64,000 nt of DNA from Nesterenkonia sp. E16_10 (GTDB lineage: Bacteria; Actinomycetota; Actinomycetes; Actinomycetales; Micrococcaceae): assembly GCF_017347085.1 (NCBI RefSeq), contig NZ_JADPSA010000042.1, positions 1 through 64,000 on the forward strand. Reading direction: 5' to 3'. The position numbers and the translations under genes are program-made. The notes under the pieces were generated by a model. That model was not told the DNA's origin, did no database searches, and worked only from the letters and a program-made list of their open reading frames with translations. Shown here one piece after another: positions 36,229 through 60,290 of this stretch. Every line of letters starts with the position of its first letter. Within the stretch, counting starts at the first letter, position 1.

Positions 36229-36258
36229 CGTCTGCGGATCTCCCGGTGTCTGCGGGTC

Positions 36259-36687: not shown

Positions 36688-36725
36688 GGTGTTCTCCTTC
36701 TTTGAGGTGTGAGGGTGACCACAGA

Positions 36726-40104: not shown

Positions 40105-40133
40105 GGTGAGGGAACTCCTAGGAGGCACGAGTG

Positions 40134-40147
40134 GGAATGCGCTTTCC
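40134..40147. promoter_or_regulatory. LacI-type operator between Gfo/Idh operon and lacI gene
   Basis: GGAATGCGCTTTCC is a 14-bp palindrome with one mismatched pair around a central GCGC, the usual form of LacI-family operators. It lies 30 bases before the Gfo/Idh start and about 100 before the divergent regulator gene, which probably binds it. Confidence 0.6.
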
Positions 40148-40250
40148 AAACTATTTCACCGAGTTAGTTGTGTCAAACGTCACAATTCGGGATCCGCGTG
40201 GGTGCGCGGATGTGGCAGGATCGTCTCGAGCAGGGGAGAGGAGCCGCGAG

Positions 40251-41432: not shown

Positions 41433-43112
41433 ATGCCTGCTGCGGACGCAGTCGTCATCGGTGTCGACTACGGCACGCTCTCGGGACGCGCCCTGGTGGT
41501 GCGCATCAGCGACGGCGCCGAGCTCGGCTCCGCGGTCCACGAATACCGCCACGCGGTCATGGATGCCACGCTCACCGCCCACCGCGACGAGCCGCTGCCC
41601 CCGGAATGGGCGCTCCAGGTCCCCGCCGACTACGTCGACGTGCTGAAGTCCGCGGTCCCTGCGGCGCTGCGCGCAGCCGGGGTCGCTGCTGAGCAGGTCA
41701 TCGGCATCGCCACGGACTTCACCGCCTGCACCATGGTGCCCACGACTCGGCAGGGCACCCCGCTCAACGAGCTGCCCGAATACGCCGACCGGCCCCACGC
41801 CTACGTGAAGCTCTGGAAGCACCACGCCGCGCAGGCCCAGGCCGACCGGATCAACGAGCTCGCCCACTCCCGCGGGGAGTCCTGGATCAATCGCTACGGC
41901 GGGTTCATCTCCTCCGAATGGGAGTTCGCCAAGGGCCTGCAGGTCCTGGAGGAGGATCCCGAGATCTACGCGGCCATGGACCACTGGGTCGAGGCCGCCG
42001 ACTGGATCGTCTGGCGGCTGACCGGCGAGTACGTGCGCAACGCCTGCACCGCTGGCTATAAGGGCATCTACCAGGACGGCAGCTACCCGGACACCGAGTT
42101 CCTCTCCGCTCTGAACCCCGAGTTCTCCGGCTTCGTCACCGAGAAGCTCGAGCACCGGATCGGGCAGCTCGGGGAGCGCGCCGGGGGACTCAGCCCCGCC
42201 GCCGCGGAGTGGACCGGGCTGCCCGAGGGCATCGCCGTGGCCGTGGGCAACGTGGACGCCCACGTCACCGCTCCGGCCGCCGACGCCGTCGCACCGGGAC
42301 AGATGGTCGCCATCATGGGCACATCCACCTGCCACGTGATGAACGGAGACCACCTGGCCGAGGTGCCCGGCATGTGCGGGGCCGTCTACGGCGGGATCAC
42401 CGACGGGCTCTGGGGCTATGAGGCCGGACAGTCCGGCGTCGGTGACATCTTCGCCTGGTACGTGGCGAACCAGGTCCCTGGAAGCATCAGCGAGGAGGCC
42501 GAAGCCCGGGGCCTGAGCGTCCACGAGCTGCTCACCGAGAAGGCCGCCACGCAGCCGGTGGGCGCGCACGGTCTGATCGCCCTGGACTGGCATTCGGGCA
42601 ACCGCTCGGTGCTGGTGGACCACGAGCTCTCCGGGCTGATGCTCGGTGCGACCCTGGCCACCAGGCCCGAGGACGGCTACCGCGCCCTGCTGGAGTCCAC
42701 CGCCTTCGGCACCCGCACCATCATCGAGGCCTTCAACGACTCCGGCGTCCCGGTGACCGAACTCGTCGTCGCCGGGGGATTGCTGCGGAACTCCTTCCTG
42801 ATGCAGCTCTACGCCGACATCACCGGGCTCCCGATCTCGACCATCGTCTCCACCCAGGGCCCCGCCCTGGGCTCGGCCATCCACGCCGCCGTCGCGGCCG
42901 GCGCCTACCCGGACGTCTCCGCCGCCGGCGCCGTCATGGGCGGACGCCGCAAGAACGCCTACACCCCGCAGCCAGAGGCGGCCACGGCCTATGACGAGCT
43001 CTACGCCGAATACCGGACGCTGCATGATCACTTCGGCCGAGGCGGCAACGACGTGATGCGCCGGCTCAAGGCCATCCGGCGTCGAGCCCACCACCAGGAG
43101 GTCAGCGCATGA
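41433..43112 (+). CDS. araB: L-ribulokinase
   Basis: 559 aa FGGY kinase phosphorylating L-ribulose to L-ribulose 5-phosphate with ATP. N-terminal VIGVDYGTLSGRALVV, IGIATDFTACTMVP, the MGTSTCHVMN block and the C-terminal VVAGGLLRNSFLMQLYADI are typical of AraB (E. coli protein 566 aa). First gene of araBDA, coupled by ATGA to araD. Preceded by AAGGAAG. Confidence 0.95.
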   Translation: MPAADAVVIGVDYGTLSGRALVVRISDGAELGSAVHEYRHAVMDATLTAHRDEPLPPEWALQVPADYVDVLKSAVPAALRAAGVAAEQVIGIATDFTACTMVPTTRQGTPLNELPEYADRPHAYVKLWKHHAAQAQADRINELAHSRGESWINRYGGFISSEWEFAKGLQVLEEDPEIYAAMDHWVEAADWIVWRLTGEYVRNACTAGYKGIYQDGSYPDTEFLSALNPEFSGFVTEKLEHRIGQLGERAGGLSPAAAEWTGLPEGIAVAVGNVDAHVTAPAADAVAPGQMVAIMGTSTCHVMNGDHLAEVPGMCGAVYGGITDGLWGYEAGQSGVGDIFAWYVANQVPGSISEEAEARGLSVHELLTEKAATQPVGAHGLIALDWHSGNRSVLVDHELSGLMLGATLATRPEDGYRALLESTAFGTRTIIEAFNDSGVPVTELVVAGGLLRNSFLMQLYADITGLPISTIVSTQGPALGSAIHAAVAAGAYPDVSAAGAVMGGRRKNAYTPQPEAATAYDELYAEYRTLHDHFGRGGNDVMRRLKAIRRRAHHQEVSA

Positions 43113-43882
43113 GCGCCCTGCACCTGAACGACTTCTCACCCACCGCCCGCGAGGCCATCGCCGAGGCCCGAGAGATTGTGGCAGCGCTGCACGCCGAGCT
43201 GCCGCGCAATGACCTGGTGGCCTGGACCGCCGGCAATGTCTCTGCGCGGGTGGACCTGCCGCAGGAGGCTGCCCAGGCCGCCGCCGAGGCCTCGGGCCAC
43301 GTCTCTGGTGATGTGTCAGGACTCTTCGTGATCAAGCCCTCCGGGGTCAGCTACGACGAGCTGGAGCCCGGGAACATGGTGGTCTGCACCCTGGACGGGG
43401 TCAAGATCGACGACGACACCTCCATCGGGCTCAGCCCCTCCTCCGACACCGCCGCCCACGCCTATGTCTACCGGCACATGCCCCACGTGGGCGGGGTGGT
43501 CCACACCCATTCCCCCTACGCGACCTCCTGGGCGGCCCGGGGCGAATCGATCCCGTGTGTGCTGACCATGATGGCCGATGAGTTCGGCGGAGACATCCCC
43601 GTGGGTCCCTTCGCGCTGATCGGGGACGACTCCATCGGCCGCGGGATCGTGGAGACCCTGGAAGCCTCCCGGTCCAAGGCGGTGCTGATGGACCGCCACG
43701 GGCCCTTCACCATCGGTGCCGATGCCCGCCAGGCGGTGAAGGCCGCGGTGCTCTGCGAGGAGGTCGCGCGCACCGTGCACTACGCCCGCGCCTACGGAGA
43801 GCCCGAACGGATCGCCCAGCACCAGATCGACGCGCTCTACGCGCGCTACCAGAACGTCTATGGACAGAAGGACCACGCATGA
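43109..43882 (+). CDS. araD: L-ribulose-5-phosphate 4-epimerase
   Basis: 257 aa class II aldolase-type zinc enzyme giving D-xylulose 5-phosphate. Zinc histidines in [14 protein letters not shown] and near the C-terminus in DRHGPFTIG; the phosphate-binding [12 protein letters not shown] block is present. About 25 residues longer than E. coli AraD because of an Ala/Gly-rich insertion after [10 protein letters not shown] (about residues 52-68). ATGA overlaps on both sides. Confidence 0.94.
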
Positions 43883-45432
43883 GCACCGCTGCCGATACAT
43901 CGAGCACCCCCGGTTCGGCCCCGTCGGCCTCACCCTTCGAGGGAAAGTCCATCTGGTTCCTCACCGGGTCCCAGGGCCTCTACGGATCCGAGACCCTGGA
44001 TCAGGTCGCCGAGCAGTCCCAGCAGGTCACCGCCGCCCTCGACGCCGCCGACCAGATCCCGGTCCAGATCGTGTGGAAACCGGTGCTCACCGAGCGCGAC
44101 GCGATCCGCACCGCCGCACGGGAGGCCAACGCCGATGAGAACTGCCTCGGGGTGATCGTGTGGATGCATACCTTCTCCCCGGCGAAGATGTGGATCGCCG
44201 GGCTCGAGGCGCTGGCGAAGCCGCTGCTGCACTTCCACACCCAGGCGAACATGGCGCTGCCCTGGGCGGAGATCGACATGGATTTCATGAACCTGAACCA
44301 GGCCGCCCACGGGGACCGCGAGTTCGGCTACATCGCCACCCGCACCGGGGTGCGCCGGAAGACCGTGGTCGGGCACAGCTCCGATCCCCGGGTCCAGGCC
44401 GAGGTGGCCAGCTGGGCACGTGCGGCAGCCGGATGGAACGAGCTGCAGAACATGCGGGTGTGCCGGTTCGGGGACAATATGCGCAATGTGGCGGTCACCG
44501 AGGGAGACAAGACCGAGGCCGAGATCCGGTTGGGCACCTCGATCAACACCTGGGCGGTCAACGACCTGGTGACACGGGTAGACGCCGTCACCGATGCCCA
44601 GGTGGACGCGCTGCTGGCGGAATACGACGCGCACTACGACGTCGCCGAGGAGCTGCAGGAAGGCGGCGCCCGCCGTGAGTCGCTGGCCTACGCCGCCCGC
44701 CAGGAAGCCGGCATGCGCTCCTTCCTTCAAGAGGGCGGATTCTCCGCCTTCACCACCAACTTCGAGGACCTCGGCGGACTGCGTCAGCTTCCCGGTCTGG
44801 CCGTGCAGCGACTGATGAGCGCCGGCTACGGGTTCGGTGCCGAAGGGGACTGGAAGACGGCCCTGCTGGTCCGCGCCGCGAAGGTGATGGGGCACGGCCT
44901 GGACGGCGGTGCCTCGCTCATGGAGGACTACACCTACGAGATGACCCCGGGAAAGGAAAAGATCCTCGGCGCGCACATGCTCGAGATCTGCCCCTCACTG
45001 ACCACCACCACCCCGCGGATCGAGATCCACCCGCTGGGCATCGGCGACCGCGAGGACCCGGTCCGGATGGTCTTCGACACCGATCCCGGCGAGGGCGTCG
45101 TCGTCGCCATGTCGGATCTGCGCGAACGCTTCCGGCTGACCGCGAACCTGGTGGACCTGGTGGCTCCGGATCAGCCGCTGCCGAATCTTCCGGTAGCCCG
45201 CGCGGTCTGGGAGCCGCGGCCCGATTTCGCGACCTCGGCGACCTGCTGGCTCACCGCCGGGGCAGCCCACCACACGGTGCTCTCCACCGGGGCCGGGCTT
45301 CAGGCCTTCGAGGACCTCGCCGAGATCGCCGGCATGGAGCTGGCGGTCATCGATGCCGACACCACCGCCCGCGGCTTCGCGAAGGAGCTGCGCTTCAATG
45401 CGGCCTACCACCGACTTGCGCAGGGGCTCTAG
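43879..45432 (+). CDS. araA: L-arabinose isomerase
   Basis: 517 aa, interconverting L-arabinose and L-ribulose; manganese dependent. [14 protein letters not shown] at the N-terminus, [46 protein letters not shown], and LEICPSLT with the metal-binding C-terminal histidines are conserved. Gene order B-D-A as in many actinobacteria. Overlaps araD by ATGA. Confidence 0.96.
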
Positions 45433-45512: not shown

Positions 45513-46673
45513 ATGCAGAACCGATCAATGAAGATGCTGGGCGTCTCGGCCGCCCTGGTTTTGGGCCTCACCGCATGCTCCGGCGGAGGCGCGGGCAGCG
45601 ACGGCGGCGACGACGCCGGCGGAGGGGATGCCGCACCGGAGGACATGACAGTGGGCGTCGCGATGCCGACCCAGACCTACGAGCGCTGGCTCAACGACGG
45701 CGCCTCCGTGGAGGAGGGCCTGGAAGAGCTCGGCTACACCGCTGACCTGCAGTTCGCCGATGACGACATCCCGACCCAGCAGCAGCAGATCGACCAGATG
45801 ATCACCCAGGAGTACGACGCGCTGATCATCGCCTCCATCGACGGCTCGGCGCTGACCAGCCAGCTCGACGCCGCCGCCGCGGCGGACATTCCGGTGATCT
45901 CCTACGACCGGCTGCTGACCAACAGCGAGAACGTCGACTTCTACGTCACCTTCGACAACTTCGCCGTGGGCCAGGAGCAGGCCAACGCTCTGCTCTACGG
46001 CCTGGGAGTCTTCGACGAGAACTTCGAGGAAGCCGATGACGCCCCCGAGGAGACGCTGAACGTGGAGCTCTTCGCCGGCTCCCTGGATGACAACAACGCC
46101 CGCTTCTTCTGGGACGGTGCGATGGATGTGCTCGAGCCATACATCGAGGACGGGACCCTTGCAGTTCCCTCCGGCCAGACCACGATCGAGCAGGCAGCCA
46201 CCCAGCGCTGGGAGCAGGAGACCGCCCAGGAGCGTATGGAGAACCTGCTCACCAGCGACTACGCCGGTGATGAGGAGCTCCACGGCGTGCTCTCCCCGGC
46301 AGATCCGCTCTCTCGCGGCATCATCAACGCCCTGCGCAGCGATGGCATGGGAGACACCATCGAGGACGGTCTGCCGATCGTGACCGGCCAGGACGCCGAG
46401 ATCGCCTCGGTCTCGCTGATCGCGGAGGGCGTGCAGCACTCCACCATCTTCAAGGACACCCGCAACCTGGCGGACGAAGCTGTCAGCGCAGCCGACGCCT
46501 TCCTCAACGGTGAAGAGCCTGAGGCCAATGACACCGAGAGCTACGACAACGGCTCCGCGGTGATCCCCTCCTACCTGCTGCCGGTGGAGATGATCCTCGA
46601 GGAGAACTACGAGGAGATCCTCGTGGAGTCTGACTTCTACACCGAGGAGCAGGTCGAGTCCGGCCAGCAGTGA
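45513..46673 (+). CDS. Sugar ABC transporter substrate-binding lipoprotein (CUT2)
   Basis: 386 aa. Lipoprotein signal with lipobox LTAC, Cys22, then a Peripla_BP_4 domain (MTVGVAMPTQTYERWLNDGASVEEGLEELGY-type region, IIASIDGSALTSQLDAA, YVTFDNFAVGQEQA), the multiple-monosaccharide (ChvE/MmsE) type. The genes after araBDA make L-arabinose the likely ligand. Eighty bases after araA with a strong AGGAGG, and followed by a very stable hairpin, the usual way to give binding protein in excess over the membrane parts. Confidence 0.92.
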   Translation: MQNRSMKMLGVSAALVLGLTACSGGGAGSDGGDDAGGGDAAPEDMTVGVAMPTQTYERWLNDGASVEEGLEELGYTADLQFADDDIPTQQQQIDQMITQEYDALIIASIDGSALTSQLDAAAAADIPVISYDRLLTNSENVDFYVTFDNFAVGQEQANALLYGLGVFDENFEEADDAPEETLNVELFAGSLDDNNARFFWDGAMDVLEPYIEDGTLAVPSGQTTIEQAATQRWEQETAQERMENLLTSDYAGDEELHGVLSPADPLSRGIINALRSDGMGDTIEDGLPIVTGQDAEIASVSLIAEGVQHSTIFKDTRNLADEAVSAADAFLNGEEPEANDTESYDNGSAVIPSYLLPVEMILEENYEEILVESDFYTEEQVESGQQ

Positions 46674-46785
46674 TCCTCATCGAGCAGCGACCCCGATAGC
46701 GCGGGGACATCGATCGGCCAGGACCCCTGCGGGGGTGCCCAGCTCGATCTGCCACTGAGCTGAGCACGGCTCACCAGTTTCGCCG

Positions 46786-46817
46786 GTCGGGCCCGGGGCG
46801 GAAGCCCCGGGCCCGAC
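46786..46817 (+). other. 14-bp GC hairpin after the binding-protein gene
   Basis: Perfect 14-bp stem 46786-46799 / 46804-46817 closed by a GGAA tetraloop. Placed between binding-protein and ATPase genes; likely an mRNA-protecting or partial termination element. A second small stem GACCT/AGGTC (46815-46819/46827-46831) precedes the ribosome site. Confidence 0.7.
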
Positions 46818-46844
46818 CTTCGGCAGAGGTCCTAAGGAGGGCCC

Positions 46845-48386
46845 ATGAACGAGAACATCCTTGAGATGCGCTCCATCACCAAGCGATTCCCCGGGGTGGT
46901 GGCGCTCCAAGACGTGAACCTGCAGGTGCGCCGCGGAGAGATCCACGCGGTCTGCGGCGAGAACGGGGCAGGAAAGTCCACCCTGATGAAGGTGCTCTCC
47001 GGCGTGCATCCGGCAGGCACCTACGAGGGCGAGATCCACTTCGAGTCGAAGCAGGTGAGCTTCTCTTCACTCAACGACTCCGAGGACCTTGGCATCGTCA
47101 TCATCCACCAGGAGCTTGCACTGGTGCCACACCTTTCGGTGGCAGAGAACATCTTCCTGGGAAATGAGAAGAGTCGCGCAGGAATCATCAACTGGCACGA
47201 CGTCAATCTTGAGGCCGCGGCCCTGCTGGACAAGGTCGGTCTGCGAGAGAACCCGGTGACCCCGGTGGGCCACCTCGGGGTGGGCAAGCAGCAGCTCGTC
47301 GAGATTGCCAAGGCGCTCAGCAAAGATGTGAAGCTGCTCATCCTCGACGAGCCCACCGCCGCGCTGAACGACGACGACTCCGCCCACCTCCTCGGTCTCA
47401 TCCGAGACCTGCGCGAGGAAGGCGTCACCTGCATCATCATTTCGCACAAGCTCGGCGAGATCGCTGCAGTGGCCGACTCGACCACGGTCATCCGGGACGG
47501 CAGCACCGTGGAGACGATCGACATGGCGGAAGCCTCCGCCAACGGTGAGGACCTCACCCGACGGATCATCCGCGACATGGTCGGGCGGGACATGGAGAAC
47601 ATGTACCCGGAGCGGGACGTGACCCTCGGTGAAGAGGTCTTCCGCATCGAGGACTGGCACGTCAGGCACCCGACCCAGCGGGAACGCAAGGTGGTGGACG
47701 GAGCGTCGCTCAACGTCCGCGCCGGGGAGGTGGTCGGGATCGCCGGACTCATGGGTGCCGGACGCACCGAGCTGGCGATGAGCGTCTTCGGGAAGTCCTA
47801 CGGCCGAGACATCACGGGAACCGTGTATATGCACGGAGAGCCGGTGAAGATCGAGACCGTCTCCGACGCGATCAAGGCGGGGATCGCCTACGTCAGTGAA
47901 GACCGGAAGCGCTACGGGCTGAACCTGATCGACGACATCCGCCGCAACGTGAGCTCGGCCGCGCTGAAGCGGATCGCTCCGCGCGGCTGGATCAACGAGA
48001 ACGAAGAGATCGCGGTGGCAGAGCGCTACCGCACCTCGATGAACATCAAGGCGCCCACGGTCATGTCGGTCCTGGGCAAGCTCTCGGGAGGCAACCAGCA
48101 GAAGGTGGTGCTGAGCAAATGGCTCTACACCGAACCCGAGCTGCTGATCCTCGACGAGCCCACCCGCGGCATCGACGTCGGCGCGAAATACGAGATCTAC
48201 TCGATCATCAATAAATTGGCGGCCTCCGGGAAGGCGATCATCGTGATCTCCTCCGAGCTGCCCGAGGTGCTGGGCATGTGTGACCGCGTCTACACGCTGT
48301 CCTCTGGCCGGATCACCGGGCAGCTGCCCGTGGAAGATGCCACCCAGGAGCGCCTCATGGAGCTCATGACTATGGAGAAGGACTGA
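46845..48386 (+). CDS. Sugar ABC transporter ATP-binding protein (CUT2)
   Basis: 513 aa with two ABC cassettes. First: Walker A GENGAGKSTLMKVL, signature LGVGKQQLVEIAKAL, Walker B LLILDEPTAAL. Second: degenerate Walker A GLMGAGRTELAMS, signature KLSGGNQQKVVLSKWL, Walker B LLILDEPTRGIDVGAKYE. This is the MmsA/XylG/AraG pattern; energises L-arabinose or related monosaccharide uptake. AAGGAGG upstream of ATG. Confidence 0.93.
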   Translation: MNENILEMRSITKRFPGVVALQDVNLQVRRGEIHAVCGENGAGKSTLMKVLSGVHPAGTYEGEIHFESKQVSFSSLNDSEDLGIVIIHQELALVPHLSVAENIFLGNEKSRAGIINWHDVNLEAAALLDKVGLRENPVTPVGHLGVGKQQLVEIAKALSKDVKLLILDEPTAALNDDDSAHLLGLIRDLREEGVTCIIISHKLGEIAAVADSTTVIRDGSTVETIDMAEASANGEDLTRRIIRDMVGRDMENMYPERDVTLGEEVFRIEDWHVRHPTQRERKVVDGASLNVRAGEVVGIAGLMGAGRTELAMSVFGKSYGRDITGTVYMHGEPVKIETVSDAIKAGIAYVSEDRKRYGLNLIDDIRRNVSSAALKRIAPRGWINENEEIAVAERYRTSMNIKAPTVMSVLGKLSGGNQQKVVLSKWLYTEPELLILDEPTRGIDVGAKYEIYSIINKLAASGKAIIVISSELPEVLGMCDRVYTLSSGRITGQLPVEDATQERLMELMTMEKD

Positions 48387-48389
48387 GGC

Positions 48390-49571
48390 ATGACCGGTAC
48401 ATCAAATCTCATCGAGCTCATGACGCGAAACCTGCGTCAGAGCGGCATCTACATCGCCTTCGTGCTCATCGTCCTGCTCTTCACGGTGCTCACCGGAGGC
48501 ACGCTGCTCAGCCCGGGAAACATCACGAACCTGGTGCTGCAGTACTCCTACATCCTGATCCTCGCCATCGGCATGGTGATGATCATCGTCGCCGGCCACA
48601 TCGACCTCTCCGTAGGTTCGGTGGTGGCGCTCACCGGCGGCGTGGCCGCAGTGGTCGTGATCCGCGAGGGCATGCCCTGGTGGGTGGGCGTCATCGCCGC
48701 ACTCATCACCGGTGTCCTGGTGGGCATCTGGCAGGGCTTCTGGGTGGCGATCGTGGGGATCCCCGCATTCATCGTGACCCTTGCAGGCATGCTGATCTTC
48801 CGCGGACTGGCCATGCAGGTGCTGGACAACGTCTCACTCTCCCCCTTCCCGGAGGAGTACCGACAGATCGCTGGCGGCTTCTCCAACGGGCTGCTCGGCG
48901 GACCCGGCTACGACCTCTTCACGCTGGTGATCTTCGCGCTCGCCTCGGTGGGCTTCGCTGTCCAGCAGTGGCGTGCACGGATGCGCAAGCTCGAATACAA
49001 GCAGCCGGTTGAAGCTCTGTGGCTGTTCGCCGTCCGGGTGCTTCTGGTGATCACCGTCATCATGGCCTTCGGGTGGCAGCTCGCCAACTCGCGCGGGATG
49101 CCCTATGTGCTGGTGCTGCTCGCCGCGCTCGTGCTGATCTACGGCTTCGTCACCCAGCGCACCGTCTTCGGCCGCCACATCTACGCCATGGGCGGCAACC
49201 TCGACGCCGCCAAGCTCTCCGGCGTCAAGACCCGCAGGGTCAACTTCATGCTCTTTGTGAACATGGGCGTGCTGGCGGCCATCGCCGGCATCGTCTACTC
49301 GGCCCGCTCGAACTCGGCCCAGCCTGCGGCGGGAAACATGTTCGAGCTGGACGCGATCGCCGCGGCCTTCATCGGCGGCGCGGCGGTTACCGGCGGCGTG
49401 GGCAAGGTCCAGGGCGCGATCATCGGTGGTCTGATCATGGCGGTGATGTCCAATGGCATGCAGATCATGGGCATCGACCAGTCCACGCAGAACGTGGTGC
49501 GAGGCGTGGTGCTGGTGCTGGCCGTGGCCTACGACGTCTGGAGCAAGAAGCGGTCCTCGGTCAGCGCCTGA
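48390..49571 (+). CDS. Sugar ABC transporter permease (CUT2)
   Basis: 393 aa with about ten hydrophobic helices, the MmsB/XylH-type permease. MIIVAGHIDLSVGSVVALTGG and the AAFIGGAAVTGGVGKVQGAIIGGLIMAVMSNGM-type C-terminal region (shown by its blocks AVTGGVG and GAIIGG) are conserved. Three bases after the ATPase gene. Forms the channel of the CUT2 transporter. Confidence 0.92.
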   Translation: MTGTSNLIELMTRNLRQSGIYIAFVLIVLLFTVLTGGTLLSPGNITNLVLQYSYILILAIGMVMIIVAGHIDLSVGSVVALTGGVAAVVVIREGMPWWVGVIAALITGVLVGIWQGFWVAIVGIPAFIVTLAGMLIFRGLAMQVLDNVSLSPFPEEYRQIAGGFSNGLLGGPGYDLFTLVIFALASVGFAVQQWRARMRKLEYKQPVEALWLFAVRVLLVITVIMAFGWQLANSRGMPYVLVLLAALVLIYGFVTQRTVFGRHIYAMGGNLDAAKLSGVKTRRVNFMLFVNMGVLAAIAGIVYSARSNSAQPAAGNMFELDAIAAAFIGGAAVTGGVGKVQGAIIGGLIMAVMSNGMQIMGIDQSTQNVVRGVVLVLAVAYDVWSKKRSSVSA

Positions 49572-49598
49572 GGCCCATCCCGCGGCGAGCCCGTGGCA

Positions 49599-49675
49599 GT
49601 CCTCGAGTGTGCGATCCGATCAGGTGATCCGGCCAGGTCAGGCCGAACTCCTGGGAGGATCGCGCACTCGAGGAC
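49599..49675. repeat. 18-bp inverted repeat after the transporter operon
   Basis: 49599-49616 pairs with 49658-49675 over 18 bases with a single G-T position; the 41-base loop contains GGCC..GGCC self-complementary parts. May terminate the ara operon or be an interspersed repeat. The arms contain CTCGAG. Confidence 0.6.
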
Positions 49676-49728
49676 GTCCGGGCGACATCGCGCACCGTGA
49701 CACCGCCCACGTCTGGAAGTATGAGGGA

Positions 49729-51954
49729 ATGACCATCGATTCCGCACAGCACACCTCGGTAGTCCTCAGCGAATGGGCCCCGGTGGACGAGCGTCGGCTC
49801 TTCCTCGGCGAAGGCGCGCGTTTTCTGGAGACCGGCATCAGCCCGGTCCCGGAGACGCGGCAGCCCGACGCCGCCCAGCACCCCTTCGTGCTGGTCGACA
49901 TCCTGGACGGCGCCCTGTACTCCACCACGGCCGAGCCCGGCTCGGGACTGACCCCGCAGGGCAGCCTGGACCAGCCGCTCGGCGCTGTGGCCCCGGTGCG
50001 CCAGCACAGCTCCGCACCCGACGGCCGCTGGGTCGCGGCACTGGGCAAGGGCCTGGCCCTGCTGGAACGCTCCGCCACCGGTGAGCTGCAGGTCATCGAG
50101 ACCCTGGGCGAACCCGCCGCCGGCCGCTCCTCGGTGCCGCTGCGGATGAACGACGCCGTGGCCGACCCGCACGGCCGCTTCTGGGCCGGCGCCATGGCCT
50201 ACGACGGCGACGCCGGGCAGGGCTTCCTGCTCCGGCTGGATCCCGACGGGGCGATCCACATCGTGCTCGAGGACCTGGCCATCCCCAACGGCCCGGCCTT
50301 CAGTGCCGACGGCGCCACGATGTACCTCTCCGACACCCCCACCGGCTGGATCCGCCGCTACCGGGTGGACATCGCCACCGGTGCGCTCGACGCCGGGGAG
50401 GACTTCATCCACATCAGCGAGGGCGGCCCCGACGGGATGACCGTCGACGCCGAGGACTGCCTCTGGTCCGCGGTCTGGGGAGCCTCCTGCCTGCACCGCT
50501 ACTCACCGTCCGGGGAGCTGCTCGAACGCATCGCCGTTCCGGTCCGGCAGCCCACTTCCATCGCGCTCAGCGCAGCCCCGCCCTACCGGGTGATGGTCAC
50601 CTCCGCCACCGAGAACCTCGAGGAGCCCATCGAGCACGACGGTCGGGTGATCACCGCCGAGGTCAGCGTCGCGGGACGCCCCGCGGTGAGCCATCTGCGC
50701 AGCTCCGGGCAGGAGCCGCAGGCCAACTGGGCCGGGAACCTCACCTACTCCGCCGACCGACTGGTCCGGCCGCGCTCCATCGAGGAGCTGGCCCGGATCG
50801 TCGCCGAGTCCGACCGGATCAAGGCATTGGGCAGCCGGCACAGCTTCAGCTCCGTGGCCGACACCACCGGCACCCTGATCGAACTCACCGCGATGCCGCG
50901 GGTCTTCACCCTCGACGCCCAGGCCGGCACGGTCACCTTCGACGCGGCCACCCGCTACGGGGACCTCGCCGCCGCGCTGCAGGCCGAGGGCTGGGCGCTG
51001 CCGAACATGGCCTCGCTGCCGCACATCACCGTGGCCGGGTCGGTGGCCACCGGCACCCACGGCTCCGGTGACCGCAATCCGCCGCTGGCCTCCTCCGTGC
51101 GCAGCCTGGAGATGGTCCTGGCCGACGGCAGCCTGCGCACCTTCAGCCGCGGCGACGCAGACTTCGACGGCGCAGTGGTCAGCCTCGGCGCCCTCGGGGT
51201 CGTCACCACGCTCACCCTCGACGTGATCCCCAGCTTCGACGTCCGCCAGGACATCTACGACGGGGTCAGCTGGGAGGGCGTGCTGGAGAACTTCGAGGAG
51301 CTCGCAGGCGCGGCCTACAGCGTCAGCCTGTTCACCCGCTGGGCCGGGGAGGACTTCGGGCTGGTCTGGATGAAGTCCACGCAGGAGCCCCCGGCCGAGG
51401 TGCTCGGCGTCGCCGCACGGCGCGAGGACATCGGTCTCGCCGGAGGACCCCCGGAGTTCGCCACGGAACAGGGCGGACGATGGGGCAGCTGGGACCAGCG
51501 CCTGCCGCACTTCCGGTTGGACTTCACCCCCAGCAACGGCGACGAGCTGCAGACCGAATACCTGCTTCCGCGCGAGAACGCCGTGGAGGGACTCCGCCGG
51601 ATGCGCGCCCTCAGCTCCGAGATCGAACCGCTGCTGCTGATCAGCGAGATCCGCACGATGGCAGCCGACGAGCAGTGGATGAGCGGCGCCTCCGGTCGAG
51701 ACACCGTCGGGTTCCACTTCACCTGGCTGCAGCGCGAGGCGGAGGTCGCCGCGCTGCTGCCGCGCCTGGAGGAGCAGCTGCTCCCGCTCGGGGCCCGGCC
51801 GCACTGGGGCAAGCGTTTCGCCACCACCGACATCGCGAGCTTCTACCCCCGGCTGGGCGACTTCACCCGTCTCGCGAAGGAGCTGGATCCCAAGGGCACG
51901 TTCCGCAACGCGTTCCTGAACGATCTGCTCTTCGGCGAGGAGCCGCGCGGCTAG
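49729..51954 (+). CDS. SMP-30/gluconolactonase - alditol oxidase fusion protein
   Basis: 741 aa. Residues about 10-320 form an SMP-30/gluconolactonase propeller with all expected metal ligands: Glu in LGEGARF, Asn in RMNDAVADPHGRFWAG, Asn in IPNGPAFS, Asp in GGPDGMTVDAED. Residues about 331-741 match Streptomyces alditol oxidase AldO over its whole length (about 418 aa): NWAGNLTYSADRLVRP, the covalent-FAD His371 in GSRHSFSS, NMASLPHITVAGSVATGTHG, RPHWGKRF and the C-terminal FRNAFLN. AldO-type enzymes oxidise xylitol, sorbitol and similar at C1 with oxygen, giving H2O2. The frame is continuous with no stop between the parts. No signal peptide. Could start earlier only through intergenic hairpin DNA, so ATG 49729 is chosen. 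A lactone-forming oxidase feeding an attached lactonase is inferred. Confidence 0.85.
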   Translation: MTIDSAQHTSVVLSEWAPVDERRLFLGEGARFLETGISPVPETRQPDAAQHPFVLVDILDGALYSTTAEPGSGLTPQGSLDQPLGAVAPVRQHSSAPDGRWVAALGKGLALLERSATGELQVIETLGEPAAGRSSVPLRMNDAVADPHGRFWAGAMAYDGDAGQGFLLRLDPDGAIHIVLEDLAIPNGPAFSADGATMYLSDTPTGWIRRYRVDIATGALDAGEDFIHISEGGPDGMTVDAEDCLWSAVWGASCLHRYSPSGELLERIAVPVRQPTSIALSAAPPYRVMVTSATENLEEPIEHDGRVITAEVSVAGRPAVSHLRSSGQEPQANWAGNLTYSADRLVRPRSIEELARIVAESDRIKALGSRHSFSSVADTTGTLIELTAMPRVFTLDAQAGTVTFDAATRYGDLAAALQAEGWALPNMASLPHITVAGSVATGTHGSGDRNPPLASSVRSLEMVLADGSLRTFSRGDADFDGAVVSLGALGVVTTLTLDVIPSFDVRQDIYDGVSWEGVLENFEELAGAAYSVSLFTRWAGEDFGLVWMKSTQEPPAEVLGVAARREDIGLAGGPPEFATEQGGRWGSWDQRLPHFRLDFTPSNGDELQTEYLLPRENAVEGLRRMRALSSEIEPLLLISEIRTMAADEQWMSGASGRDTVGFHFTWLQREAEVAALLPRLEEQLLPLGARPHWGKRFATTDIASFYPRLGDFTRLAKELDPKGTFRNAFLNDLLFGEEPRG

Positions 51955-52018
51955 GACATCACCGAGGCCACGGCCGCACCCCGCCGGGGCGCTGCCGGCG
52001 CCGGAGAGCGAGACACAC

Positions 52019-52522
52019 ATGTGGTTCGAGACATGGTCAGATCTGGGCCGGGTGCTGCTGATCGGCATGGCCGCCTACGCCGTACTGATCCTGGTGATCC
52101 GACTCTCCGGGAAGCGGACGCTGAGTCAGCTCAACGCCTTCGACTTCATCGTCACCGTGGCACTGGGCTCCGTGCTCGCGACCATCCTGCTCAGCAGCGA
52201 CGTGTCCTGGTCCGAGGGTGCGCTGGCGCTGGTCCTGCTCGCGGGACTGCAGTTCATCCTCGCCTGGATCTCCGCGCGGGCGCCGAAGTTCCGGACCCTC
52301 ATCACGGCGCGGCCTGCCGTGGTGTTCTGGCACGGAGAGATGCAGCAGGAGCAGCTGCGTCGCAACCGGCTCTCGGCCTCCGAGGTGCACCAGGCCATCC
52401 GCAGCAGCGGCTCCGGGGACCTGAGCAGCATCGGCGCCGTCGTGCTGGAGACCAACGGCACGCTCAGCGTGATCTCGGCGCAGAGCCTGGGCGACGGCTC
52501 CGCCCTGCGCGACCTCGGCTGA
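52019..52522 (+). CDS. DUF421 family membrane protein
   Basis: 167 aa. Two to three N-terminal hydrophobic helices, then the DUF421/YetF core (VIRLSGKRTLSQLNAFDFIVTVALGSVLATILLS-type region around 30-60, and LSASEVHQAIRSSGSGDLSSIGAVVLETNG-type C-terminal region). Function unknown. It separates the fusion oxidase from the next sugar cluster; ATG after GGAGAG. Confidence 0.85.
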   Translation: MWFETWSDLGRVLLIGMAAYAVLILVIRLSGKRTLSQLNAFDFIVTVALGSVLATILLSSDVSWSEGALALVLLAGLQFILAWISARAPKFRTLITARPAVVFWHGEMQQEQLRRNRLSASEVHQAIRSSGSGDLSSIGAVVLETNGTLSVISAQSLGDGSALRDLG

Positions 52523-52615
52523 GTGACCTCGACTGAGCGACCCCGCTGAGCCGGAGTGTCGGAGCCGGACCGTCGCACGCCTCGGCGCCGCAGGACATGA
52601 TTAGTTGCGCGGTGA

Positions 52616-52642
52616 TGTGTTTTGCGACACAAGGCGTAAGGT
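52616..52642 (+). promoter_or_regulatory. Promoter and palindrome before the Gfo/Idh-ThuA operon
   Basis: TGTGTTTTGCGACACA (TGTGT-N6-ACACA, 52616-52631) lies just upstream of a TAAGGT -10 box (52637-52642), in a short AT-rich stretch 40 bases before the start codon. Resembles CRP/LacI-type half-site spacing. Confidence 0.5.
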
Positions 52643-52681
52643 TGACGCGGATCACGTTCCTGCTGCCGCCGAGGAGTCCGA

Positions 52682-53914
52682 TTGACCGAGTCCACCGAAG
52701 TTCACCAGCCCGCCCCGACGTCCGCCGGGCGCCCTCTGCGGGTGGCCATCATCGGGCATGCGTTCATGGGCGTCGCCCACACCCACGCCTGGCGGACCGC
52801 GCCCAGGTTCTTCTCCATGCCGGCTCCGCCCGAGCTCGCCCTGCTCGTGGGTCGTGACGAGGCCCGCACCCGGGCCGCCGCGGATCGGCTTCAGATCGCG
52901 GAGATCGAGACCGACTGGCGCCGCGCCGTCGAACGCGAGGACATCGACGTCGTCGACATCTGCACCCCGGGCAACACCCACGCCGAGATCGCCCTGGCGG
53001 CCCTGGCCGCCGGCAAGCACGTGCTGTGCGAGAAGCCGCTGGCCAACTCGGTGGCCGAGGCCGAGGCGATGACGGCGGCCGCCGAACAGGCCGCGCCCCA
53101 CGGGGCCCGGACCTTCTGCGGATTCAGCTACCGCCGCACCCCCGCGCTGGCGCTGGCGAAGCGCTTCGTCGAGGAGGGGCGGCTCGGAGAGATCCGGCAT
53201 GTGCGGGCCCAGTACCTCCAGGACTGGCTCAGCGACGCCGACACCCCGCTGAACTGGCGGCTGGACAAGGACCAGGCCGGAAGCGGAGCCCTGGGCGATA
53301 TCTGCGCCCATTCCGTGGACGCCGCCCAGTGGGTCTCCGGACAGCTCATCGAAGGCGTCTCGGCAATGCTGCACACCTTCGTGGAGACCCGCCCGCTGGC
53401 CGGCGCGGCCGAGGGACTGGGCGGCCGTGCTGAAGCCGGCGCGCCGCGCGGACCGGTGACGGTCGACGACGCCGCGGCGTTCACCGCCCGGTTCGACGGC
53501 GGAGCCATCGGCGTCTTCGAGGCCACCCGGTTCGCCCAGGGACGCCGCAACGCCAACCGGCTGGAGATCAACGGCAGCCTGGGCTCCATCGCCTTCGACT
53601 TCGAGTCGATGAACACCTTGGAGTACTTCGACGCCCGCGACGACCAGGAGGCCCAGGGCTTCCGCACCATCCAGGTCACCGATGCGGTGCACCCCTATAC
53701 CGATCACTGGTGGCCGGTGGGCCACGGCCTGGGCTACGGGGACCTCTTCGTGCACCAGGTGGCCGACGTGGTCGCCGCCCTGGAGACCGGCACCGGTCCG
53801 CGCCCTGACTTCGCGGATGCGCTGAAGGTCCAGCGGGTGCTCCACGCCGTGGAGGCCAGCGCGCAGGACGCCAGTCGCTACACCCCGGTCCATCGACCCG
53901 AACCCCAAGACTGA
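52682..53914 (+). CDS. Gfo/Idh/MocA family oxidoreductase
   Basis: 410 aa. VAIIGHAFMGVAHTHAWR is a variant of the GxGxxG nucleotide motif, as in a subgroup acting on glycosides or inositols; HVLCEKPLANSVAEAE carries the catalytic Lys, and IKDQ-like C-terminal blocks follow (WLSDADTPLNWRLDKDQAGSG-type region near 180). TTG start at 52682 after CGAGGAG. Leads a three-gene set with a ThuA protein and another Gfo/Idh enzyme. Confidence 0.88.
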   Translation: MTESTEVHQPAPTSAGRPLRVAIIGHAFMGVAHTHAWRTAPRFFSMPAPPELALLVGRDEARTRAAADRLQIAEIETDWRRAVEREDIDVVDICTPGNTHAEIALAALAAGKHVLCEKPLANSVAEAEAMTAAAEQAAPHGARTFCGFSYRRTPALALAKRFVEEGRLGEIRHVRAQYLQDWLSDADTPLNWRLDKDQAGSGALGDICAHSVDAAQWVSGQLIEGVSAMLHTFVETRPLAGAAEGLGGRAEAGAPRGPVTVDDAAAFTARFDGGAIGVFEATRFAQGRRNANRLEINGSLGSIAFDFESMNTLEYFDARDDQEAQGFRTIQVTDAVHPYTDHWWPVGHGLGYGDLFVHQVADVVAALETGTGPRPDFADALKVQRVLHAVEASAQDASRYTPVHRPEPQD

Positions 53915-53922
53915 GAGAGACC

Positions 53923-54615
53923 ATGACCAAGAGCGCACTCATCGTCCGCGGCGGCTGGGACGGGCATCAGCCCGTGGAGGCCACCGAGATGTTCCTGCCC
54001 TTCCTTCAGGCCAGCGGCTACCAGGTGGCGATCCATGAATCCCCGGAGGTCTACGCCGACGCCGCGACCATGGAGTCCGTGGACCTGATCGTGCAGTGCA
54101 TGACCATGTCCACCATCGAGAAGGACCAGCTGGCAGGCCTGCGCGCCGCCGTCGCCGGCGGCGCCGGGCTGGCGGGCTGGCACGGCGGCATCGCCGACTC
54201 CTACCGGGCCAGCGACGGATACCTGCAGCTGATCGGCGGGCAGTTCGCCCACCACCCGGCGGTGCACCCCGACGAGCGCACCGGGGAGCAGTCCGACTAC
54301 TACACCCCGCATCGCATCGACATCGTCCCTGAGGCCGCCGATCACCCGATCACCGCCGGCATCGAGAGCTTCGACCTGGTCACCGAACAGTACTGGGTGC
54401 TCCACGACCAGCTCATCGACGTGCTCGCCACCACCACGCTGCCCAAGCGCGACTTCGACGACTGGGAGCGCCCGCATGTGAACCCGGCGATCTGGACCCG
54501 CCGCTGGGGACAGGGCCGGGTCTTCGTCTCGACCCCGGGGCACCGCGTCGAGGTCTTGTCGAACCCGAACGTGCGCACCATGATCGAGCGCGGCATGCTC
54601 TGGGCCAGCCGATGA
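53923..54615 (+). CDS. ThuA domain-containing protein
   Basis: 230 aa glutamine-amidotransferase-like fold: ALIVRGGWDGHQPVEA, GLAGWHGGIADSYR, IGGQFAHHPAV, and YWVLHDQLIDVLA. In rhizobia ThuA acts with the Gfo/Idh enzyme ThuB in trehalose use through a 3-keto intermediate. Here flanked on both sides by Gfo/Idh genes (8-base gap, ATGA overlap), so a keto-glycoside route is a fair inference. Confidence 0.88.
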   Translation: MTKSALIVRGGWDGHQPVEATEMFLPFLQASGYQVAIHESPEVYADAATMESVDLIVQCMTMSTIEKDQLAGLRAAVAGGAGLAGWHGGIADSYRASDGYLQLIGGQFAHHPAVHPDERTGEQSDYYTPHRIDIVPEAADHPITAGIESFDLVTEQYWVLHDQLIDVLATTTLPKRDFDDWERPHVNPAIWTRRWGQGRVFVSTPGHRVEVLSNPNVRTMIERGMLWASR

Positions 54616-55745
54616 GCGCCGGGGCAGGGTCACCGCAGGGATCAGCGGAAGAGTCGCCGCGGAGGCTCCACCTCGGGATCATCGGGGCCGGCAACATCAG
54701 CGGCCAGTACCTTCAGACGCTGAATCGGCTGCAGGACCTGAACCTGGTCGCCGTCGCCGACCTGGACATCGACCGCGCCCGTGAGGTCGCCGCGACCGGC
54801 GGCGCCCAGGGCATGAGCGTCGAGGATCTGCTGGCCTCCCCGGAGGTGGAAGCCGTCATCAACCTCACGATCCCGCGGGCCCACGCCGAGACCTCGCTGG
54901 CCGCCATCGCCGCCGGCAAGGGCGTGTACGTGGAGAAGCCCTTCGCCGCGACCGTGGCCGAGGGTCAGCAGATGCTCGCCGCCGCCGAGGCGGCCGGAGT
55001 GGTCATGGGCAGCGCTCCGGACACTGTGCTGGGCACCGGGGTGCAGACCGCACGCGCAGCCGTGGACGCCGGTCAGATCGGCACCCCGATCAGCGCGGTG
55101 GCCACCATGGTCACCGCCGGGCACGAGAGCTGGCACCCCAACCCTGACTTCTATTACCAGCCCGGTGGCGGGCCGCTGCTGGACATGGGCCCCTACTACG
55201 TCACTAGCCTGGTCACGCTGCTGGGTCCGGTGGCCTCTGTCATCGGCGCCTCCAGCGCGCTGCGCGCCGAGCGCGAGATCGGCTCAGGTCCCAGAGCCGG
55301 GGAGAAGCTGAGCGTGAGCACTCCGAGCCACATCACCGGCGCGCTGATCCACGAGTCGGGTGCCATCTCCACCCTGGTGATGAGCTTCGACGGCACCGCC
55401 AGCCAGGCGCCGCCGATCGAGGTCCACGGCACCGAAGGCTCGATGGCGGTCCCGGACCCGAACCACTTCGCCGGGGAGGTGCAGATCGCCCGCGACCGCG
55501 GCCAGTGGCAGACGCTGGAGACCACCGGCGGCTACGTGCAGGCCGCCCGGGGCTACGGCCTGGCCGATCTGTTCTGGTCCGGCGCCTTCGACGGCGACCC
55601 CACGCGGGGACGCGCGCAGGGAGCCCTGGGTCTGCATGTGCTCGAGGTGATGGCCGGGGTGCTCACCGCCGCGGAGACCGGCGCCTCGGTGACCGTCAGC
55701 TCCCGGGCGGATCGTCCGAGCGCGGTGCCGCTGGACCAGCGATGA
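54612..55745 (+). CDS. Gfo/Idh/MocA family oxidoreductase
   Basis: 377 aa. Glycine motif GIIGAGNISGQYLQTL, EKP motif VYVEKPFAATVAE, and a C-terminal domain with GGGPLLDMGPYYVTSLVTLLGP. ATG overlapping the ThuA stop. Substrate unknown; probably performs the opposite or next redox step to the first oxidoreductase of the set. Confidence 0.9.
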   Translation: MSAGAGSPQGSAEESPRRLHLGIIGAGNISGQYLQTLNRLQDLNLVAVADLDIDRAREVAATGGAQGMSVEDLLASPEVEAVINLTIPRAHAETSLAAIAAGKGVYVEKPFAATVAEGQQMLAAAEAAGVVMGSAPDTVLGTGVQTARAAVDAGQIGTPISAVATMVTAGHESWHPNPDFYYQPGGGPLLDMGPYYVTSLVTLLGPVASVIGASSALRAEREIGSGPRAGEKLSVSTPSHITGALIHESGAISTLVMSFDGTASQAPPIEVHGTEGSMAVPDPNHFAGEVQIARDRGQWQTLETTGGYVQAARGYGLADLFWSGAFDGDPTRGRAQGALGLHVLEVMAGVLTAAETGASVTVSSRADRPSAVPLDQR

Positions 55746-55793
55746 GTCCCCACCTCGGGGGCCCTGCGGTCTCGGCCCGGGTGGATTGAGGCC

Positions 55794-55799
55794 TAGGCT
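55794..55799 (+). promoter_or_regulatory. Leaderless -10 box of the second lacI gene
   Basis: TAGGCT ends 7 bases before the ATG at 55807, identical in spacing to the other leaderless genes here. Confidence 0.55.
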
Positions 55800-55806
55800 T
55801 GCTGCC

Positions 55807-56868
55807 ATGAACCCGCCCAGCTCCAGGCCCACGATGCGCGATGTCGCCGAGCGCGCGGGCGTATCGCCCAAGACGGTCTCCAATGTGCTCACCGGGAGCG
55901 CCCAGGTGCGGGAGCCGACCCGGCTGCGCGTGGAGCAGGCCATGCGGGAGCTGGACTTCGTGCCCAACCTCAGCGCCCGCGGGCTGCGCAACGGCCGGTC
56001 CGGAGTCATCGGGCTGGCGCAGCCGGACCTGCGGGCCGCCTTCTCCGCCAGCATGACCCACGCGGTGGTGGAGGCCGCCCACGCCCGGGGACTGGTGGTG
56101 CAGGTCGAAGAGACCGCCGCGGAGCCTGCGCGGGAACACGACCTGGTGACCCGGGCCCGCACGCACCTGATCGACGGGATGATCCTGAATCCCGTGCGGC
56201 TGCAGGACAGCGTGGTCGAGCACCTGGACCACCTGCCGCCGATCGTGCTGATCGGCGAGGTGGAGCAGCACCGCACCGACCGGGTCTTCATCAACTCACG
56301 ATCCGCCGCCCGCGAGGCGGTCCAGCACCTGATCGCCCGCGGCGCCCGGCGGATCGTGGCACTGGGCGGCGCGGAGCACGGGGCCGGGCTGGACAAGGCC
56401 ACCCAGGGGCAGCGGCTGCGCGGATACCTCGCCGGACTCGCCGAGGCGCAGCTCCCCGCACGGCCCGAGCTGCAGGTCGAGGTCCCGGAGTGGACCATCG
56501 CCGGCGGCGCGGCGGGGATGCGAGAGGTCCTGGAGCGGGGAGTGGAGTTCGATGCGGTCCTGGCCTTCACGGACTCCATCGCGCTCGGCGCCATGCATGA
56601 GCTGCGCAGCTGGGGGGGCCGGCTGCCCGAAGACGTGCTGGTCTGCGGTTTCGACGACGTCGAGCACGCAAGCTTCGCCGGCACCCCGCTGACCACGATC
56701 GCCTTCGACCACCAGGCCTACGCCAACGCGGCGCTGGACCTGCTGACCTCCCGAATGCGGGACCGCGGGCTGCCGCCGCGCGCACAGGAGATCCCCTATG
56801 AGCTGCTGGCGCGCGCCAGCACCCAGGGCCCTCCCGCCGGCTTCTCAGGAAAAAACTCACCGATCTAG
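55807..56868 (+). CDS. LacI family transcriptional regulator
   Basis: 353 aa. TMRDVAERAGVSPKTVSNVLTG helix-turn-helix, hinge LSARGLRNGRSGVIG, ligand-binding domain with VCGFDDVEHASFAGTPLTTI. The ATG at 55807 is set by the TAGGCT box; a TTG 7 codons earlier would overlap it. Directly upstream of the CUT1 transporter and GH51 genes, whose promoter has a perfect palindrome that this protein probably binds. Confidence 0.92.
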   Translation: MNPPSSRPTMRDVAERAGVSPKTVSNVLTGSAQVREPTRLRVEQAMRELDFVPNLSARGLRNGRSGVIGLAQPDLRAAFSASMTHAVVEAAHARGLVVQVEETAAEPAREHDLVTRARTHLIDGMILNPVRLQDSVVEHLDHLPPIVLIGEVEQHRTDRVFINSRSAAREAVQHLIARGARRIVALGGAEHGAGLDKATQGQRLRGYLAGLAEAQLPARPELQVEVPEWTIAGGAAGMREVLERGVEFDAVLAFTDSIALGAMHELRSWGGRLPEDVLVCGFDDVEHASFAGTPLTTIAFDHQAYANAALDLLTSRMRDRGLPPRAQEIPYELLARASTQGPPAGFSGKNSPI

Positions 56869-59278: not shown

Positions 59279-60189
59279 GCGCCACGACGACCCTCAACGA
59301 GATCGATGCCCCTGGGGCCGATGTCACCCAGGTGAGACGGACCAACCGGATGCCGGGGGAGAAGCGCTTCGGGCTGCTCCGGATCCTCGCCTTCGCCGCC
59401 CTGGTGAGCATGGCGGTGCTCTGGCTGCTCCCAGTCTTCTGGGCGCTGGTGACCTCCTTCAAGACCGAGACCGACGCCGCCTCCGGAGGCCTCGACCTGA
59501 TCGGCCCCAGCGGCTTCACCACCCAGGCCTTCGAGGCGATTCTCTCCCAGGGCAACGTCTACATCTGGGCGCTCAACAGCCTCTGGACCTCCGCGGTGAT
59601 CACCGCCATCACCGTGGCGATCTCCGCGCTGGCCGCCTATGCCTTCTCCCGGCTCGACTTCAAAGGCAGTCGCTGGATCTTTCTCGCGGTCATCGCCTCG
59701 ATCATCGTGCCGTCCCAGGCGCTGATCATTCCGCTCTACTACCAGATGCTGACCTTCAACATGGTCGACACCTACTGGGGGCTGATCCTCCCGCAGGTCG
59801 TGATGGCGCCGATCGTGTTCATCCTGAAGAAGTTCTTCGACGCGGTGCCGGTGGAGCTCGAAGACGCGGCCCGGGTCGACGGCGCGGGCCGGCTGCGGGT
59901 GTTCTTCTCCGTGGTGCTCCCGCTCTCGCGCCCGATCCTCGGCGCGGTGTCGATCTTCGTGTTCATCCAGGCCTGGAACAACTTCCTATGGCCCTTCCTG
60001 ATCATCAACGACACCACCCTGATGACGCTGCCGGTCGGGCTGCAGACCGTGCTCAGCGCCTACGGCGTGCAGTACTCCCAGGTCATGGCGCAGGCGGTGC
60101 TCGCCGCGCTGCCCCTGGTGATCGTGTTCCTGTTCTACCAGCGCCAGATCGTCAAGGGGGTGGCGACCACCGGCTTCGGCGGCCAGTGA
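59275..60189 (+). CDS. Sugar ABC transporter permease (MalG/AraQ type)
   Basis: 304 aa, six hydrophobic helices. EAA loop: LEDAARVDGAGRLRVFFSVVLPLSRP (near 198-222). N-terminal LLRILAFAALVSMAVLWLLPVFWALVTSFK is typical of the second CUT1 permease. Overlaps the first permease by ATGA; 101 bases to the GH51 gene with no terminator seen. Confidence 0.93.
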   Translation: MSATTTLNEIDAPGADVTQVRRTNRMPGEKRFGLLRILAFAALVSMAVLWLLPVFWALVTSFKTETDAASGGLDLIGPSGFTTQAFEAILSQGNVYIWALNSLWTSAVITAITVAISALAAYAFSRLDFKGSRWIFLAVIASIIVPSQALIIPLYYQMLTFNMVDTYWGLILPQVVMAPIVFILKKFFDAVPVELEDAARVDGAGRLRVFFSVVLPLSRPILGAVSIFVFIQAWNNFLWPFLIINDTTLMTLPVGLQTVLSAYGVQYSQVMAQAVLAALPLVIVFLFYQRQIVKGVATTGFGGQ

Positions 60190-60290
60190 CCGATCATCCA
60201 GCCCGAGCAGTCCCGACAGAGCTGTCCAGAAGCGGCAGCGCAGTTCCAGCAGGCGCCCACGCAGCGCACACCCCGATTTCAAGGAGCACC

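Follow-up and report, generated by a model that had tools for sequence, protein, structure and literature searches.

A gene of Nesterenkonia sp. E16_10 was found to encode a putative sugar lactonase and an alditol oxidase-like flavoprotein in one chain. The gene occupies 49729-51954 (+) of the window, the 64,000-nucleotide stretch of DNA that was analysed, and consists of a single stop-free frame of 741 codons and a stop codon. Pfam analysis of the 741-aa product placed an SGL domain at residues 47-293 (E 5e-56), a FAD_binding_4 domain at 343-472 (4e-24) and an ALO domain at 608-731 (5e-16), all above cut-off, which confirmed the observation of an earlier note that a single frame joins an SMP-30 domain to an AldO flavoprotein. 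The full-length SGL-AldO gene was present in five of 30 Nesterenkonia genomes (that of the window, G152, G042, G089 and G107), and the other four proteins were 89-92% identical to that of the window. Overall, SGL-AldO is a real fusion that, among the sampled genomes, is confined to one lineage. Both enzyme families were already known; what is new is the domain combination and not a new kind of system.

The first half of the protein (residues 1-320; 49729-50688, +) was identified as a SMP-30/gluconolactonase-like domain from Pfam, PDB relatives and an AlphaFold2 model. The SGL profile scored 190.5 bits against a curated cut-off of 26.3, and phmmer aligned this half with 2ghs, 7plb and regucalcin (3g4e). 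The likeness to the SMP-30/gluconolactonase/LRE family extends to the metal and substrate residues, whereas those chains of 290-333 residues consist of SGL alone and here SGL is the N-terminal half of a fusion. The model of this half was nearly all beta, with pLDDT mostly 70-94 at residues 11-320 and lower values in a few loops. Three putative metal ligands were assigned, namely Glu28 (49810-49812, +), Asn187 (50287-50289, +) and Asp235 (50431-50433, +), for human Glu18, Asn154 and Asp204, respectively. The "metal-complete" domain of the earlier note was thereby upheld, with Asn187 and Asp235 placed by alignment and Glu28 by the expected GEG motif only, since the local alignment stops short of it. 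In addition, R139 and N141 aligned with human R101 and N103. The ligands in human numbering and the roles of the residues are given in the available part of PMC3551927. From its family, this half is a putative sugar lactonase and is predicted to hydrolyse lactones.

The second half (residues 332-741; 50722-51951, +) was identified as an AldO-type alditol oxidase domain. Residues 332-736 aligned by phmmer with the AldO-type structure 2vfr, a "xylitol oxidase" that we take to be Streptomyces coelicolor AldO (402 bits), and residues 332-731 with the FAD-binding protein 8ot8 (401 bits). His371 (50839-50841, +), within SRHSF, aligned with the FAD-linking histidine of AldO, presumably His46, so that a full-length AldO-like flavoprotein with His371 was found as claimed, the covalent attachment of FAD at this residue being presumed from the alignment to 2vfr. 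Residues S429, Q608, E640, R642, H663, T665 and K695 aligned with the active-site residues of AldO, which we take to be S106, Q288, E320, R322, H343, T345 and K375. A428 aligned with Ala105, the gatekeeper of AldO according to the available part of PMC5646868. The NCBIfam models TIGR01678, TIGR01679 and TIGR01676 scored 144, 179.8 and 56 bits, well below their cut-offs of 396.8, 292.25 and 458.25, and the second half is therefore AldO-like and not a member of the sugar-1,4-lactone oxidases. The whole chain of AldO (2vfr, 8ot8) is homologous to residues 332-736, with the FAD-linking histidine, gatekeeper alanine and substrate contacts kept. However, 2vfr is a stand-alone protein of 422 residues and here AldO is the C-terminal half of a fusion; the single-domain character of AldO enzymes is absent, as translation and Pfam place SGL on the same chain. 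AldO accepts many sugar alcohols, with galactitol, xylitol and sorbitol among those tested, and yields aldoses or further oxidised acids (available part of PMC4513209). This half is predicted to carry out an O2-dependent alditol oxidation.

The frame of the fusion gene stays open 5' as far as 49453; 49729 was chosen as the start, which is supported by conservation of the N-terminus among the relatives. AlphaFold2, run with a 10-row alignment, modelled the SGL half well and the AldO half poorly (mean pLDDT 57.1, pTM 0.46). No promoter or terminator was found by scans of 49400-52800.

Upstream of the fusion gene and on the same strand were a LacI-type regulator, an araB-like FGGY sugar kinase gene (ribulokinase; 41433-43112, +; Pfam FGGY_N and FGGY_C), an araD-like gene for a class II aldolase family protein (ribulose-5-phosphate epimerase; 43109-43882, +; Pfam Aldolase_II), the L-arabinose isomerase gene araA (43879-45432, +) and the genes of a ChvE-GguA-GguB-type sugar ABC transporter (45513-49571, +; NCBIfam NF040907, NF040905 and NF040906 over cut-off). 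Downstream, Pfam identified genes for a YetF-like (DUF421) protein, a GFO/IDH/MocA oxidoreductase, a ThuA protein, a second GFO/IDH/MocA oxidoreductase and a LacI regulator (52019-56868, +), with the ThuA gene flanked by both oxidoreductase genes. Beyond this second LacI gene were sugar-transporter-like genes and an alpha-L-arabinofuranosidase frame (59988-61847, +; Pfam Alpha-L-AF_C), the true start of which is probably further in. The araB- and araD-like genes, araA, the transporter and the arabinofuranosidase frame mark this region as an arabinose/arabinoside locus. The isomerase-kinase arabinose pathway that had been reported next to the fusion gene was thus recovered, with araA over cut-off in both Pfam and NCBIfam, and araB and araD named by Pfam family and operon position.

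A 77-nt hairpin was found by folding and repeat search between gguB and the fusion gene (49599-49675, +), in a region that folds with a z of -4.8. The genome contains five scattered, paired, REP-like copies, this one included, whose arms lie 56 nt from each other, and the hairpin is therefore a dispersed repeat that is not special to the fusion gene. In the record of Nesterenkonia sp. LB17 (NZ_JAJOYX010000004.1; L055:9807-9935), the fusion gene is closely preceded by long G and C runs, which probably reflect an error of sequencing or assembly at the hairpin repeat. Elsewhere in the window, a divergent operon (35050-40149, -) encodes a GFO/IDH/MocA protein, a DUF993 protein, a xylose-isomerase-like TIM barrel, a universal stress protein and a glycerate kinase; relatives of four of these genes lie directly downstream of AldO in G150 (L112). 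The window also holds a second galactokinase-family gene (29952-31304, -); galK itself is on contig C16 (L260) and adjoins what look like galE and galT.

Among the 30 Nesterenkonia genomes, SGL and AldO genes were adjacent but separated by a stop in G066, G168, G160 and G157, both were present but apart in G012, G150 and G155, and AldO of this clade occurred without a close SGL in G165 and G153. At thresholds of at least 50% identity for SGL and at least 59% for the AldO clade, the two co-occurred in 12 genomes, AldO was alone in two and SGL was alone in one weaker case (G164); this co-occurrence could be explained by shared descent alone. In 395 genomes of the family, the five Nesterenkonia proteins were the only full-length matches listed (E 1e-140 or better). 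Outside the genome of the window, no fusion was among the matches listed in 396 genomes of the order, 394 of the class and 396 of the phylum, samples that overlap with each other and with that of the family, in searches that scored two candidates per genome and that a fusion with weakly conserved halves could escape. None of 822 matching plasmid records held 80% of the query in one place. Named public relatives were Nesterenkonia proteins and one Sphaerisporangium SGL. The earlier note had known both families only as separate proteins and had called for their taxonomic spread to be mapped. The sampled genomes place the fusion in Nesterenkonia only; no SGL-AldO fusion was found in any other genus among them, and there the two genes occurred only apart. 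No description of the fusion was found in open-licence papers, as judged by titles and the starts of abstracts. A Cu/Zn-SOD with a beta-propeller lactonase from Deinococcus, as presented in the available part of PMC12362111, likewise has a lactonase-type propeller fused to an oxygen-related redox enzyme, although the redox domain and the host differ from those of SGL-AldO.

In the four split relatives, SGL ended in TAG, followed by a spacer with a AGGAAGGA Shine-Dalgarno sequence and the GTG start of AldO. Residues of the KSSSQDPQ..NW type came after the GTG in three of the four split species, and those of G160 differed. In the two split pairs checked over 22 kb (L058, L059), the pair stood at the same place and in the same gene order as the fusion. 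The interval from GRVITAEV to NWAGN was 99 nt in all five fused genes compared to 168-218 nt in the split ones, a net difference of 69-119 nt that covers the stop, Shine-Dalgarno sequence and start. Comparison with the split relatives showed the junction (residues 321-331, SHLRSSGQEPQ; 50689-50721, +) to consist of the SGL end and an apparent remnant of the AldO N-terminus, and the fused genes seemed to retain a readable vestige of the AldO leader (SSGQEPQANW). The fused genes clustered as a group of five in the AldO tree with a support of 100/99, beside the four split ones (99/97), while the SGL tree of 12 rows left the five fused genes unresolved. As AldO is not joined to SGL in more distant relatives, the simplest history is that of one fusion caused by a deletion. 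One event in the ancestor of the five Nesterenkonia species would have removed, by a short deletion, the SGL stop, the Shine-Dalgarno spacer and the AldO start. Both states were observed, and the direction from split to fused is most likely in view of the unfused relatives. In G107 (L128:11685-18434) and G160 (L129:2918-8493), an insert with a GH106-type rhamnosidase gene and what look like genes for solute-binding proteins lies between gguB and the SGL gene.

Averaged over the pairs of fused genes, dN/dS was 0.195 in the SGL half and 0.142 in the AldO half, which indicated that both halves are kept by purifying selection; values in the split group were similar (SGL 0.190, AldO 0.108). The fusion was unbroken in five species with a mean synonymous divergence of about 0.3 and is thus at least well tolerated. 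These results also bear on a missed stop or frameshift that joined two genes during sequencing or assembly, for which the split versions in sister species might speak. The same architecture was present in five genome assemblies, three of which are also named public records, and both the junction interval, identical in all five fused genes, and the purifying selection across them argue against such an error, the probability of which is negligible. Near 50700, where the earlier note had asked whether resequencing would reveal a stop or frameshift, four other genomes carry the same uninterrupted full-length protein; with the frame common to five genomes, an artefact was ruled out.

AldO of the same clade was also found fused to the C-terminus of a galactokinase in two further genomes of the genus, G155 (L114:9094-11523, -) and G165 (L116:8923-11352, +). 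This GalK-AldO protein has 809 aa, with a galactokinase signature, both GHMP domains, FAD_binding_4 and ALO. It resembles SGL-AldO in having this AldO clade as the C-terminal partner and in the genus, but its N-terminal partner is GalK and not a lactonase. No SGL match was found in the 20 kb fetched around L114 or L116. In the AldO tree the two GalK-AldO genes formed a group of their own (100/99), placed elsewhere in the genus, so that GalK-AldO represents a separate event. In G012, galT, galK and AldO adjoin without fusion. No paper on a galactokinase joined to an alditol oxidase was found among open-licence papers. In total, an AldO match was present in 238 loci, several of which repeat one gene, and 85 of these loci had an in-frame upstream extension of at least 150 codons. 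Thirteen of the 85 extensions matched SGL (nine loci, five genomes) or GalK (four loci, two genomes), and the other 72 did not match any of the 24 query proteins. Five of these 72 were scanned with Pfam and contained no further domain, and ten that were read by eye resembled antisense read-through. L134, L156, L163, L167 and L121 initially resembled fusions but were set aside, their extensions being without a further domain or like antisense read-through.

The occurrence of AldO with two different partners within one genus would also fit a fusion that is an accidental, near-neutral product of an operon, with halves that act on unrelated substrates and share one chain only through the deletion. 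SGL would then serve the product of a GFO/IDH/MocA dehydrogenase and AldO an alditol. The two GFO/IDH/MocA genes downstream, the similar dN/dS of fused and split genes and the fact that these differ by little beyond spacer, stop and start are consistent with this explanation. However, the persistence of an unbroken frame at the observed synonymous divergence and the presence of a sugar enzyme as the partner in both fusions make it rather improbable.

The neighbourhoods of AldO were compared in 69 loci, a non-random set of top-scoring matches with mostly one locus per genus, in which related genera are not independent. The set included four Nesterenkonia loci without SGL; the SGL-linked Nesterenkonia loci L128 and L129, L130 with SGL only and L181 without AldO were outside the count. 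In 20 of the 69 loci, from 14 genera, the 13-20 kb that had been fetched contained an aldose-using gene (xylA in 11, araA in eight and galK in one), and none of the three was present in 49. The chance expectation is estimated at about one neighbour match in all, if genomes are about 4 Mb with one copy of each gene. Gaps to neighbours were measured as distances between tblastn ends. Four loci from other genera of the family (L122, L126, L172 and L190) had xylA-xylB-AldO on one strand, 38-63 nt before AldO, an array which suggests that AldO supplies xylose from xylitol. In five loci xylA was divergent from AldO at 168-277 nt (L123, L150, L173, L178 and L185), in two araA preceded AldO by 62-70 nt (L127 and L183), and in L158 AldO was followed by galK after 67 nt. 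In L187, AldO came after araD-araA-chvE-gguA-gguB; its position matched that in the window, but SGL was absent. As the gene stands beside xylAB, araBDA or galK, whose products consume aldoses, AldO can be read as an alditol-to-aldose feeder, although an aldose oxidase beside an aldose-using gene would also fit.

For the window, we give roughly even chances to a deletion-born protein in which AldO supplies an aldose to the Ara enzymes, SGL opens a lactone and the fusion mainly fixes expression. With covalently bound FAD and O2, the AldO half would convert an alditol to an aldose by oxidation at the terminal hydroxyl, with H2O2 as the other product. The likeliest reaction would be L-arabinitol to L-arabinose (or galactitol to galactose), and the aldose would feed the upstream AraA-AraB-AraD route. 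The configuration at C2-C4 is common to L-arabinose and D-galactose, which makes it reasonable that one AldO clade moves between ara and gal loci. The SGL half would open an aldonolactone that comes from over-oxidised aldose or is made by the GFO-family dehydrogenases of the locus. The fusion may mainly fix a 1:1 expression of the halves, for which direct channelling would not be needed. These functional steps are predicted from sequence, architecture, history and neighbourhood, which are the observed part. For an oxidase that acts on alditols alone, a lactonase is a strange partner, and over-oxidation accounts only weakly for it; if over-oxidation ran through the aldehyde hydrate, the acid would form directly and leave no lactone to open.

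The earlier note had instead proposed that AldO oxidises an aldose (L-arabinose or galactose) at C1 to a lactone that is opened by SGL, as a H2O2-forming route to aldonate. The catalytic residues present in both halves and the 12 of 30 genomes that contain SGL together with this AldO clade fit this proposal, as does the ability of AldO to over-oxidise to acids (available part of PMC4513209). In addition, the SGL gene of G150 lies in a galK-galT-SGL-pfkB-KDPG-aldolase cluster (L113:7437-12406, -) that is like an oxidative galactose route, and its clustering with pfkB-, KDPG-aldolase-, galK- and galT-type genes suggests a real sugar-lactonase role. On the other hand, AldO is classically an alditol oxidase, GalK-AldO requires no lactone, and G165 and G153 have AldO without a close SGL. 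The genome of the window (98.75% complete) contained one IlvD/EDD dehydratase and no KDPG/KHG aldolase, and no clear use of an aldonate was evident. It also contained two MR_MLE proteins over cut-off, one of which adjoins a TPP-enzyme gene that resembles menD, a name given by reading; the second (L257) could be a sugar-acid (aldonate) dehydratase, which would favour the proposal. As a general account we regard it as unlikely, though with an appreciable share of the probability, and a dedicated oxidase-lactonase route is possible but less supported than AldO as a supplier of aldose. Of the earlier interpretation, the genuine and conserved fusion with complete catalytic residues in an arabinose locus stood, while a dedicated side route, in which one half of the fusion makes a lactone for the other to open, was not supported in the form proposed, given GalK-AldO and the 20 feeder-like loci.

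A related and doubtful reading is that of a one-chain aldonate synthase that would use O2 and no NAD(P), taking the L-arabinitol/L-arabinose or galactose pair to a lactone for the attached lactonase. The aldonate might then be exported or used by unrecognised enzymes, for example the neighbouring GFO/DUF993/glycerate-kinase set, and GalK-AldO would capture the aldose instead. If this were true, the same oxidase module would be wired to two exits in one genus.

AldO-type alditol oxidases are known as biocatalysts, and nothing that ties AldO to a cellular pathway was found in the open-licence papers searched, as judged by titles and the starts of abstracts. The two separate fusions and the recurring xylAB, araBDA or galK neighbourhood, with AldO supplying aldose as the preferred reading, lead to a testable proposal in which AldO feeds the isomerase or kinase encoded next to it. 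SGL-AldO and GalK-AldO are natural bifunctional oxidase proteins, and the nine genomes with SGL and AldO fused or split show an adjacent gene pair turning into one protein. Finally, the fusion probably helps Nesterenkonia to use plant sugars such as arabinose.
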